Of a DNA stretch of 64,000 nt, positions 37,448 to 41,354 are shown one piece after another. The notes beneath the pieces are model-generated. The model ran no database searches. It was given only the letters and a program-made list of their open reading frames with translations, and was not told the DNA's origin. Both the position numbers and the translations under genes were made by a program. The first letter of the stretch is position 1. Each line of letters opens with the position of its first letter. The DNA comes from Hyphomonadaceae bacterium JAD_PAG50586_4 (lineage in GTDB: Bacteria > Pseudomonadota > Alphaproteobacteria > Caulobacterales > Aquidulcibacteraceae): NCBI GenBank assembly GCA_023242925.1, contig CP096134.1:3429501-3493500 (forward strand), written 5' to 3'.

Positions 37448-37855
37448 ATGCAAGCTGTCGCTCAAGCCACCTCGATCGTTCTCTCCGGCGCCTCGCTCGG
37501 TTGGATCATTTTGTTCTCGTTTGTGCTCTCTCCGGTTGCGTTCAAAACCTTCGACGCGGGCCGGGCCGAGCGGATCGTGAAAATGGTGATGAATTCCGGG
37601 CACGGGATTTTGGGGCTGATCGCATTCGCCGCGGGTGCTGCGGGATTTTTCTCCGGCGCAGTCGCGGGCGGTTCGGTCGCGATGGTCGGCGGGGCGTTCG
37701 CCTTCATGTGCAAGTTCGCGCTGGCGCCGCGCGAGGATAAGCCGATCAAAGGCCATCGCGTGGTGAAGACAGCGCGCATCGTCGCCTCCGGCCTCACGGC
37801 GTTTATCATGCCCGTCATGTTCGCCGCGATCGTGCTGACGATGCTGGGGATTTAA
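37448..37855 (+). CDS. DUF4149-like membrane protein
   Basis: 135 residues with four hydrophobic helices; DUF4149/TMEM205-like (VLSPVAFKTFDAGRAERIV; the loop then VMNSGHGILGLIAF). An inner-membrane protein of unknown function. Convergent with the phospholipase-like gene (4-bp overlap). Confidence 0.7.
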   Translation: MQAVAQATSIVLSGASLGWIILFSFVLSPVAFKTFDAGRAERIVKMVMNSGHGILGLIAFAAGAAGFFSGAVAGGSVAMVGGAFAFMCKFALAPREDKPIKGHRVVKTARIVASGLTAFIMPVMFAAIVLTMLGI

Positions 37856-39603
37856 GCCGCGACCGTCGCACCGCCGCTTTGCAGAGACCGGCGCGCGCGT
37901 TCGATCCAGGTGGCGATATCATCTTCGGTTGGCGCAGGCGCTGTGCCCCAGGCGCGCTGACCTTCATCCGACAAGCCCCAGCGCGCGACGCCGTCGCAGA
38001 GCTCTGTCGCGTCCATCGCCACCAGCTCTTGCGCATCATGCACGCCGCACGCCACGAGCGCTTGCGCTTCGCGTGACTTGAGACCGGGCACGGTGCACGC
38101 CAACAACGCCTGGCTCTGCCAATCGCGGATCACTTGCGCGGAGATGTGGCGCGCATCGATTTGCTTGGACGCTTCGTCCGCTTTCGCGGCGATCAGATCA
38201 GCGATCGTTCGCACGCCGACGGCTTCGAGGCGCTTGGCCGTTTTCGGGCCGATGGATGGCGCTTGCACGACCGGGGCATTTTCGTTGAGCGTGAAACGCG
38301 GCAGCGACTTCTCCTGCTTGGCGCGTGGCGCGCCGACCGGCAACTCGCGCGGAATGATAGGCTCTTTCGCAGGCTTCGGCGCAGGCGCGGGTGCGGCGGC
38401 TTCCGGCGCGACCGCTTCGACAGGCGTCACAAGAGGGGCGACAGCGGCGATCTTCGCGGGCTTTGGCGTTTCCGCCTTTGGCTTTGGCGCAGGCGCGGGC
38501 GCTTCGGCCACCTTCGGCGTCGGCGTAGGCGCTGCGGCGACCACCGGCTTCGGCTTGGGCGCGGGCTTCGGTGTGGGCTTTGGTGTGGGCTTTGGTTTTG
38601 GCGCAGCATTCGCTTTGCCGCGCGCGGGTGCGCCTTCACCAGCCTTCGCGCCAATTTCGCGCGGCCATTTGGCGTCGAGCGACGAGAGCGCGGTCTTGCT
38701 CACCTCGCTGGCGTAGAGCGCGCGCACGACCTTGTCGTCTTCGCCGAGCGTGTTGCGCACTTTGCCGGTGCGGCGGAATTCCTCGTATTGCGCTTCGACC
38801 TCTTTGCGCGCGGCCGCGTCGTCCATCAGCTTCAGCACAGCTTGGATCGGCGTTTCAAGCGCGAGGAAAAAGGCCTGCAGCGCGCCGCCCACTTTCGGCG
38901 GCGCGACAGCTGCTTCCTCGAACGCGCGATCGAGAATGCGTGCGAAGCCAATTGCGGCGTGGCCGACGAGCTTGGCGATCGTATCCTTCAGCTCTTGATC
39001 GAGGCCCGCTGGCGGGTCCTTCACGCCTTTCTCAAGGTCGTAGTGATCGATCACCAGCTCGTAGTGCGGGTTCGACGCTTTGGCGCCCGCCAGCACCATT
39101 TCCGCGAGCCATTTGTCGCCCGCAGGCACAGCCACATCAGGATAGCCGCCGAGATCGCGCTCAAGGATTTGCTGGAAGGTCTTGTACGATTTCGAGAAGC
39201 TCCATTCGACCGCGCGGTGAATGACGCCCTCTTCTTCCGTTTGGTGCGTGTGGAAGGGCTGGATCGGGTCGGCGTAATAATGGCTCATCACGCCGGCCGA
39301 CCACGCGGCCTGTTGCCAATCCTTGGCCGCGAGCGCGCGCACTGTGCGGCGGTACCATTCCTCGCACGCTTCAACCGCGCCGCCCCAATTGCCGTCGCGC
39401 ACGTGCAGAACGTGGTTCTTGAAATCCTTGAACACCTCGTCGGGCGCCTTGGCGCCTTTGAGATATTCGTCGTGATAGTGGAGCAGCAAATTGCGCCAAT
39501 CCTCGGCGGCCGGCGCACGGAGGTGGCGCAGCGCGTCCACCGCGATGCGATGGTGATTGGATCGGCAGCGGCTCGCGAAAACGACCGCATACAGCAAAGA
39601 CAT
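37852..39603 (-). CDS. Zinc-dependent phospholipase C-like domain fused to DUF4332 (HhH)
   Basis: 583 residues. The N-terminal about 300 residues look like zinc-dependent phospholipase C/S1-P1 nuclease: HHRIAVDALRHL, LLLHYHDEYL and SHYYADPIQPFHTH supply candidate zinc His/Asp ligands. A Pro/Lys/Ala linker (about 300-430) leads to a C-terminal DUF4332 region with helix-hairpin-helix repeats (SIGPKTAKRLEAVG; VPGLKSREAQAL). No signal peptide is visible, so it may be cytoplasmic, unlike typical PLC. The fusion is unusual; substrate unknown. Confidence 0.7.
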   Translation of the reverse strand: MSLLYAVVFASRCRSNHHRIAVDALRHLRAPAAEDWRNLLLHYHDEYLKGAKAPDEVFKDFKNHVLHVRDGNWGGAVEACEEWYRRTVRALAAKDWQQAAWSAGVMSHYYADPIQPFHTHQTEEEGVIHRAVEWSFSKSYKTFQQILERDLGGYPDVAVPAGDKWLAEMVLAGAKASNPHYELVIDHYDLEKGVKDPPAGLDQELKDTIAKLVGHAAIGFARILDRAFEEAAVAPPKVGGALQAFFLALETPIQAVLKLMDDAAARKEVEAQYEEFRRTGKVRNTLGEDDKVVRALYASEVSKTALSSLDAKWPREIGAKAGEGAPARGKANAAPKPKPTPKPTPKPAPKPKPVVAAAPTPTPKVAEAPAPAPKPKAETPKPAKIAAVAPLVTPVEAVAPEAAAPAPAPKPAKEPIIPRELPVGAPRAKQEKSLPRFTLNENAPVVQAPSIGPKTAKRLEAVGVRTIADLIAAKADEASKQIDARHISAQVIRDWQSQALLACTVPGLKSREAQALVACGVHDAQELVAMDATELCDGVARWGLSDEGQRAWGTAPAPTEDDIATWIERARRSLQSGGATVAA

Positions 39604-39692
39604 GGAAGAGCGCCCCTCGCCCCAGGAATGAATGCGAGGTTAAAAACTGGCGTGGGTTTGGTTAGCGAGCCGTTAAAATGGCGCGCAAAGTA

Positions 39693-41354
39693 TCAGTCGT
39701 CGCCGCGCACCAAGCCCCAATCCTCACAAAGAATGCGCACCAGATCCTCGTGGCGGTGCTCGATCACGTCGAGCGTCCACTCATCCACATTGGCGATGGA
39801 CTTGGTCAGGGCATGGATGGGCGCGCCGGGAGAATTGAAAAGAATACGCTTTTTCTCGGGGAACGGCTTGTTGTCGGCGACCTTATTTTGTTCGTAGGTG
39901 ATGAGCGTCAGATTGCCGAGCAGATGGCAGAGCTCGCCACGCAGCGCGGAATCCGGGAAGCGTTCGTTCCACCAATTGGCGCCGCTTTTGGGCATGATGT
40001 GCTCGACGGTGGCGTCGTCGGTCATCGTCAGCACGCTGCCGCCCGGCATCGCCGCCTCGACGCGGAGCAGCAGCAAGCGGCGCTGTCGGTCGCGTTTGCG
40101 CGAGCGATTGAGCGTGGCGATGAATTTCAGATGCTCGGCGTGGCTAAGTTCGAGCGCACCCTTCTCGCCGTGCAGCTGCTTGTCGTCGCCAACGCCTTTG
40201 ACGGCGCGTTCGTAGCGCTTTTCCTGCACCCGATTGTCGATGACGCCGAGTTCGCAGGCAAACGCGTAACGATCGAGCGCTTGGAAGAATTTGCGCGCGC
40301 GTTCGTGCTCGCTGGAATGCTCGGCAAGGAAAGCGATCGCGGCGGGCGCCCAATCCCATTCCTCGACCTGCTTCATCATCTTCACGCGTCGGTTCACTTC
40401 GGCGCTGTAGGGGCCAACATCGATCGAGCCTGTGAACACCGCGCGCAGGGCTTCGGCGTAACGCGGCAATTGATCGAACAGGAACGTGCGCACGCCGCCG
40501 GCTCGATCCACGGCCGTGCGGAACGCGGCCAGATCGCCCGGCGACAAGAGCTGCTCTCCGGTCAGCAAGAACGGCATCATGTAGAGCAATTTCGCGAAAT
40601 TCTCGCGCTCGAACATATCCTCGATTTGCTCCCATTTGCGCGCGGCGGCTTCGGCCTCGGCGTTGGAGAGCTTGGAGTTTTCTAAGAGATCGCTCTTGAT
40701 GATGTCGGCGTGGGAGAGCGGCGAGCCGCGCTTGTTGAGCGTATTGAACACCGTCTGCGCGCAGCCGCGCTCGTCCGCATCGACCACGTTGAGCGTGCAG
40801 CAGCGCGCAACATAGGAAATGAACGCGTCGAGTTCGCGATCATCCAAACGCGCGAGTTCGCTTTCGATCGTGCGCGCAGCGCCGACGAGCAAATCCTTTG
40901 AATCGATGCCGATCTCAGCATGCTGCGCCATCGCCGACATCTGCCCCGGCTCCTGCACGTAACCGCGATAGAAGTTCGCGTCCTCCTCACGCAGGAAAAG
41001 CCGCGGCTGGTCGCCGTCCATGATCAGCGCTTGGTAGTGACGCGTACGACCCGGCAAGCGATCGCGGACATAAGCGATGATCATCGTCAGCGTAGAGAGA
41101 CGCTGCTGGCCGTCGGAAATTTCGAGCTTGCCGTGGTTCTTCACCAGCACGATCTGGCCGATGAAATAGAACGAGGCGCGGCGCTGATAGGCGCGCCACA
41201 AGTCCTGGATCAGCTGGCGCACTTCGCGCTCGCCCCACGTGTAGGGCCGCTGATAGCGCGGCACTTTGAGCGCCGCCTTGCGCGTCAGCACCGAGGCGAG
41301 ATTCAGAATCTGTGACGTGAGACCCAGCGGTGTGTCGCCAAATGCGTGCGCCAT
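39693..41354 (-). CDS. GmrSD-like DUF262-DUF1524 protein (putative type IV restriction)
   Basis: 553 residues combining an N-terminal DUF262 domain (VPRYQRPYTW; ISDGQQRLSTL, a ParB-like nucleotidase fold) and a C-terminal DUF1524 His-Me finger nuclease (DATVEHIMPKS, LGNLTLITYEQNKVADNKPF). The arrangement is that of GmrS fused to GmrD in one chain. Such proteins cut modified (often glucosylated hydroxymethylcytosine) phage DNA. It stands alone among housekeeping genes. Confidence 0.85.
   Translation of the reverse strand: MAHAFGDTPLGLTSQILNLASVLTRKAALKVPRYQRPYTWGEREVRQLIQDLWRAYQRRASFYFIGQIVLVKNHGKLEISDGQQRLSTLTMIIAYVRDRLPGRTRHYQALIMDGDQPRLFLREEDANFYRGYVQEPGQMSAMAQHAEIGIDSKDLLVGAARTIESELARLDDRELDAFISYVARCCTLNVVDADERGCAQTVFNTLNKRGSPLSHADIIKSDLLENSKLSNAEAEAAARKWEQIEDMFERENFAKLLYMMPFLLTGEQLLSPGDLAAFRTAVDRAGGVRTFLFDQLPRYAEALRAVFTGSIDVGPYSAEVNRRVKMMKQVEEWDWAPAAIAFLAEHSSEHERARKFFQALDRYAFACELGVIDNRVQEKRYERAVKGVGDDKQLHGEKGALELSHAEHLKFIATLNRSRKRDRQRRLLLLRVEAAMPGGSVLTMTDDATVEHIMPKSGANWWNERFPDSALRGELCHLLGNLTLITYEQNKVADNKPFPEKKRILFNSPGAPIHALTKSIANVDEWTLDVIEHRHEDLVRILCEDWGLVRGDD

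Follow-up and report, generated by a model that had tools for sequence, protein, structure and literature searches.

What does a polypeptide do that joins a zinc-hydrolase-like domain to a DNA-binding-like HhH domain, and which phosphodiester does it cleave, if any? This question is raised by a reading frame at 37852-39603 in the window, that is, the whole stretch of 64,000 nucleotides that we analyzed, which comes from a 4.18-Mb alphaproteobacterial genome. A first-pass annotation had described the frame as a phospholipase C (PLC)-like domain fused to a DUF4332 HhH domain, and Pfam bore this out with both domains above their cut-offs. PF00882 (Zn_dep_PLPC) matched residues 17-137 with 29.7 bits (gathering cut-off 26.8) and PF14229 (DUF4332) matched residues 449-572 with 68.5 bits (gathering cut-off 23.2), with an HHH_5 match nested within the DUF4332 region of the 583-aa protein. 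PF00882 was likewise matched by 49 of 50 orthologue N-domains (E 0.01 or better), indicating that the low PF00882 score in the window is not due to chance, and all 49 of 49 orthologue C-domains matched DUF4332. The frame is a real gene with a three-part architecture, whose parts are the following:

37852 to 39603, minus strand: the whole gene, 583 aa with an ATG start, encoding a zinc phosphodiesterase domain, a family-specific module, a linker and a DUF4332 tandem HhH domain
39568 to 39603, minus strand: leader, residues 1-12, a predicted helix that precedes the position of the superfamily's N-terminal Trp ligand
38902 to 39579, minus strand: PLC/P1-nuclease fold, residues 9-234, from the model and structure match
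38650 to 38856, minus strand: helical module TGKVRxTLxEDDxxVRxLxAxEV, residues ~250-318, family-specific and outside the PLC fold
38314 to 38640, minus strand: linker, about residues 322-430, Pro/Lys/Ala-rich in the window protein and variable
37888 to 38259, minus strand: DUF4332 tandem HhH domain, residues 449-572, with the first hairpin A-P-S-I-G-P-K-T-A

Matches were found in 29 of 29 sampled same-genus genomes and in several genera of the family and order. The N-domain was rare class-wide (2 of 289 sampled genomes), and phylum-wide it was found in 5 of 398 sampled genomes, two of them from other alphaproteobacterial families; full reading of these two orthologues showed that both domains are present. 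A scan of ~85,000 named genomes gave 173 relatives, of which the best 80 were used for taxonomy and loci. These 80 came from Terricaulis-like bacteria, Hyphomonas, Henriciella, Hirschia and a few contigs labelled Planctomycetota, and most of their loci kept the fusion end to end. The whole fusion is conserved across Caulobacterales, a few other alphaproteobacterial families and several Planctomycetota-labelled contigs. The Planctomycetota-labelled orthologues form deep, separate branches of the tree, and, provided that the labels are correct, their full fusions suggest that the gene has passed from one phylum to another. Three Acidobacteriota-labelled contigs carry an orthologue that is nested inside Hyphomonas in the tree, and these are probably mislabelled or contaminated MAGs. 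An origin from a phage or mobile element was rejected, as no relative of the protein was found in the viral contigs, plasmids and phages searched.

Next, the fold of the N-domain was analyzed with an AlphaFold2 model built with 50 orthologues. The N-terminal 325 residues were predicted as an all-helical domain (pLDDT 94.7). The best fold match was B. cereus phospholipase C 1ah7 (Z 19.2, 3.5 A, 215 residues), and the Listeria PC-PLC 8cqm matched with Z 18.4. S1/P1 nucleases, including SmNuc1, showed Z 13-14.4 (S1 nuclease 5fbg, Z 14.4, 207 residues), such that the predicted fold is closer to phospholipase C (Z 19) than to the nucleases (Z 13-14). Among the structure matches listed, no other chain was found at Z >=5, the next unrelated chain having Z 4.4. 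As judged from the modelled fold and the ligands, the N-domain is a member of the PLC/P1-nuclease superfamily (Pfam clan CL0368). The zinc ligands of SmNuc1 are Trp27, His32, Asp71, His88, His141, Asp145, His151, His175 and Asp179 (PMC11705217), and the corresponding elements of the window protein are these:

39550 to 39555, minus strand: H17-H18 pair, in 79 of 81 orthologues, counterpart of PLC His14 and SmNuc1 His32, with a presumed ligand role
39403 to 39441, minus strand: D55...K59-D60...H64...H67, counterpart of the catalytic Asp and a zinc His (PLC Asp55/His69; SmNuc1 Asp71/His88)
39205 to 39282, minus strand: zinc motif H108-x3-D112-x5-H118...H129-x3-E133, all five residues in 81 of 81 orthologues

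D55, D60, H64 and H67 are invariant (81/81 orthologues), K59 is present in 80 of 81, and the spacing of H108/D112/H118 (+4/+10) is identical to that of SmNuc1 His141/Asp145/His151. When matched by order and spacing, eight of the nine SmNuc1 ligands have counterparts (H17 or H18, D55, H67 or H64, H108, D112, H118, H129 and E133), Trp27 being the exception. Thus, all side-chain zinc ligands (5 His and 3 Asp/Glu) have putative counterparts that are invariant or nearly so; this assignment rests on order and spacing, from which we also infer the metal geometry. The zinc site proposed by the first-pass annotation therefore withstood structure prediction, as the fold was that of PLC and S1 nuclease and the ligand residues were kept.

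The zinc site of S1/P1 nucleases and PC-PLCs, which are exported enzymes in the classical case, uses the mature N-terminus, and an N-terminal Trp that binds zinc through its main chain was present in all characterised enzymes compared. To our knowledge, the PLC/P1 fold is otherwise mostly found in enzymes that are secreted and whose N-terminal Trp ligand is free. In the 81 orthologues, the N-terminal Trp main-chain ligand is absent and a 12-residue leader stands in its place, so that the third zinc may bind differently or not at all. The leader has a helix at residues 3-11 in the predicted model, and Met occupies its start column in 74 of 81 orthologues. The residue nearest to the Trp-ligand position is Cys13 in most Caulobacterales. 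Cys13 was rejected as a general substitute zinc ligand, since six of the 81 orthologues have A, S or T in its column and the residue is absent in the two other alphaproteobacterial families, whose orthologues have HANGTHH at this position. No signal peptide was recognisable by sequence inspection in the window protein or in the orthologue N-termini, in agreement with the first-pass annotation; some orthologues begin MSLLERVVRAHRCRSTHH, and such leaders, bearing E and several R, are too charged to be signal peptides. The fusion protein is apparently intracellular. A conserved intracellular branch that lacks the Trp ligand and keeps the others, with an extra module of its own and a DNA-type HhH domain fused to it, would show rebuilding of the metal site for intracellular use.

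With the N-terminal amine ligand lost and replaced by a leader helix, the zinc site might be structural or inactive and the protein a binding protein, not an enzyme. Such a protein would fit the lack of the defining Trp1 main-chain ligand, the conservation of the leader, and the findings in LmPC-PLC that the fixed W1 position matters and that an added propeptide is inhibitory (PMC10576769). However, the catalytic Asp and the remaining ligands have stayed invariant among deeply diverged orthologues, as is typical of a working enzyme, and we regard a pure binding protein as quite improbable.

The C-terminal 152 residues were modelled as two HhH units (pLDDT 93.4). The first unit resembles RAD51D/RadA-type HhH domains with Z 8-9, which is modest taken alone, and aligns with Y-family polymerase thumbs in sequence profiles. 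The second unit matches NusA AR1 (1u9l; 1.6 A, 70 residues) with Z 8.1, likewise modest alone. The first hairpin A-P-S-I-G-x-K-T-A is kept among the orthologues, and the second hairpin is degenerate. HhH-type domains often hold DNA, and tandem HhH also serves protein contacts; a net acidic charge is unusual for a DNA-binding domain. Although the I-G-x-K-T-A hairpin is kept, the median net charge of the HhH domain is -4 among the orthologues, and that of the enzyme domain is -6.

Between the two domains, the TGKVRxTLxEDDxxVR module is kept in the alignment of alphaproteobacterial and Planctomycetota-labelled members, and elsewhere in 190 sampled genomes a single marginal match was observed (E 0.008). 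The first-pass annotation had also pointed to a Pro/Lys linker. A linker spans roughly residues 322-430 and its presence is conserved among the orthologues, but its Pro/Lys composition is not: orthologue linkers are 30-264 aa long with net charges of -46 to +12. Linker chemistry switches between basic Pro/Lys and strongly acidic (to -46 net among the orthologues), and three members of one Hyphomonas-like group have long Asp/Glu runs instead of the Pro/Lys linker.

The fold and the HhH charge bear on a second possibility, an intracellular lipid phosphodiesterase that would work at the inner membrane, cutting lipid intermediates or the head groups of phospholipids, with the HhH domain as a protein-protein or oligomerisation module. 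The nearest fold is indeed a phospholipase C, Pfam gives PF00882 and not PF02265, the HhH domain is net acidic, and tandem HhH also makes protein contacts, its second half here matching NusA AR1. In contrast, neither a signal peptide nor a membrane anchor is visible, and, as far as we know, characterised PC-PLCs are all secreted, with a cleaved signal or propeptide that was not seen here. The choline pocket of BcPC-PLC includes Tyr56 (PMC10576769), and the pocket Glu4/Tyr56/Phe66 of PC-PLC was not found in the family, where residue 56 is variable and mostly polar (E, D, T, A and others). Listeria PC-PLC likewise lacks Tyr56 (PMC10576769), so the variable residue 56 weakens lipase activity as an explanation without excluding it. 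Overall, we consider a lipid substrate rather unlikely.

The upstream region of the gene was then analyzed. As shown, it contains two sites:

39660 to 39676, minus strand: CtrA-like full site TTAACGGCTCGCTAACC, ~73-57 bases before the ATG
39629 to 39643, minus strand: second site TTAA-N7-TTCA, ~40 bases ahead of the start codon, found in the window's own group

An exact copy of TTAACN6CTAACC occurs genome-wide only at this promoter. In most Caulobacterales orthologues, TTAA-N7-[T/C/G]TAACC is located mostly 58-79 bases upstream of the start; the half-sites are conserved, and the spacer varies. When the 150 bases before the start were searched for TTAA-N7-TTAA with no more than one mismatch, a CtrA-like site was counted for 63 of 79 orthologues compared to 8 of 622 control ORFs (1.3%) in the same loci. 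Many orthologues without the site are Planctomycetota-labelled or otherwise distant; seven Planctomycetota-labelled loci carry the full fusion without it. The window's genome contains ctrA (425.7 bits; cut-off 350), and an H. neptunium study with CtrA depletion and ChIP-seq data gives the CtrA consensus as TTAA-N7-TTAAC (PMC7200025). The strict motif TTAA-N7-TTAACC was not enriched genome-wide (3 sites compared to 10 for the reversed control), which makes CtrA no more than the probable binder. These upstream sequences indicate that the gene is probably timed by CtrA, and hence the cell cycle, in Caulobacterales, which would make it a candidate new cell-cycle player in Hyphomonas and its relatives.

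Control by LexA/SOS was rejected, as no exact box was found in 79 upstream regions and one-mismatch matches were as frequent as in shuffles. In the window's group, an inverted repeat CCTCGC...GCGAGG (39615-39639, minus strand) was also observed immediately ahead of the start codon, where it possibly hides the ribosome-binding site. The folding of this leader RNA hairpin exceeds that of shuffles to a modest degree (mean z -2.2), and we make no claim for it.

The CtrA-like site is relevant to a further alternative, namely a small-molecule phosphoesterase acting on nucleotides such as 3'-nucleotides or c-di-GMP, which the HhH domain would bring to the nucleoid or to a protein complex. Both cleavage of c-di-GMP and 3'-nucleotidase activity are known for SmNuc1, a member of this clan (PMC11705217), and the H. 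neptunium CtrA regulon includes c-di-GMP genes (PMC7200025), which accords with a CtrA-like site on this gene. However, the neighbourhood shows no linked nucleotide-signalling gene, and we judge this alternative unlikely.

A GmrSD-type gene and a glutamate-racemase-like gene precede the zinc-HhH gene in the window's group. The GmrSD-type gene (39693-41354, minus strand; PF03235 + PF07510, DUF262/DUF1524) is on the same strand, 89 bases upstream, has PADLOC Orf5/HEC-06 matches, and is shared with the zinc-HhH gene in ~26 loci, all of the window's group. Neighbours differ between lineages, for example in Hyphomonas, which suggests that the gene stands alone under its own promoter, and an operon-based function was rejected on this ground. 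In the orthologous loci, the gene was not found in a conserved operon with genes for DNA repair or nucleases. A known defence protein was also rejected, since PADLOC gave no match for the zinc-HhH protein.

Taken together, we propose, tentatively and as the likeliest single reading, although it is unproven and falls somewhat short of an even chance, that the zinc-HhH protein is a cytosolic phosphodiesterase that cleaves nucleic acid. The catalytic domain would sit on a flexible tether to the tandem HhH (DUF4332) domain. The zinc cluster would activate water, with Asp55 as the catalytic base and Lys59 as a phosphate-binding residue, and phosphodiester bonds of a nucleic acid would be cleaved at the zinc site. 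The HhH domain would hold the enzyme on DNA or a nucleoprotein partner, the linker would give the tethered enzyme reach to its target, and in Caulobacterales CtrA would time transcription via the conserved site that closely precedes the start. The near-invariant K59, four residues past the putative catalytic Asp, appears to support a nucleic acid substrate, as do the HhH fusion with its A-P-S-I-G-x-K-T-A hairpin, the intracellular location and, as far as the alignment tells, the lack of a conserved aromatic residue at choline-pocket position 56. Against it count the net acidity of the HhH and enzyme domains, the modelled fold being nearer to PLC, the missing N-terminal amine ligand, the absence of a conserved DNA-repair or nuclease operon and of a LexA box, and the PF02265 model, which matched just one of 50 members, marginally (E 0.0013). 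Of the first-pass annotation, the domain calls, the zinc-site residues and the apparent intracellularity are supported; its nucleic-acid substrate and DNA binding by the HhH domain are putative, and the acidic domains and the PLC-like fold speak against them. A fuller version, in which the protein is a cell-cycle-timed, DNA-tethered intracellular zinc nuclease, trinuclear or modified dinuclear, without the Trp ligand, is doubtful. The superfamily is promiscuous, as the nuclease TBN1 is reported to have phospholipase activity, according to a title cited in PMC4144908.

Finally, the protein was compared with known systems. It resembles Zn-dependent PLC (PF00882; 1ah7, 8cqm) in the fold of residues 9-234 (Z 18-19), the side-chain ligands and a Pfam score above the cut-off, but it lacks the N-terminal Trp ligand, a visible signal peptide and a conserved Tyr56, and it adds the helical module and the fused HhH domain. 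With S1/P1 nucleases (PF02265; S1, SmNuc1, TBN1 and AtBFN2), it shares the clan, the fold (Z 13-14), the ligand order and the H/+4/+10 motif; the basic residue after the catalytic Asp is K59 at +4 here, whereas S1 nuclease Lys68 and SmNuc1 Arg74 are at +3, and the secretion signal and N-terminal Trp are missing. The nucleobase-binding site NBS1 of S1/P1 nucleases lies beside the zinc cluster; when profiles were compared with those of three S1/P1 nucleases, the alignment was of low probability and covered the HxxxD region only. Since the protein lacks features tested for PC-PLC and for S1/P1 nuclease alike, we file it under neither enzyme. Its likeness to DUF4332 (PF14229) proteins is the C-terminal tandem HhH above the curated cut-off; other alphaproteobacterial DUF4332 matches are mostly frames of ~135-250 aa, and those that were read are without a zinc domain. 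The Het-C domain, compared by its published description, is predicted to belong to this all-helical metal-hydrolase superfamily too and, unlike the zinc-HhH protein, is a toxin/heteroincompatibility domain (PMC3482391). In the open-access papers searched, DUF4332 was named by a single one, in a figure legend, and no description of its combination with a zinc domain was found, as the first-pass annotation had supposed. Within a known superfamily, the zinc-HhH fusion thus represents a new domain architecture.
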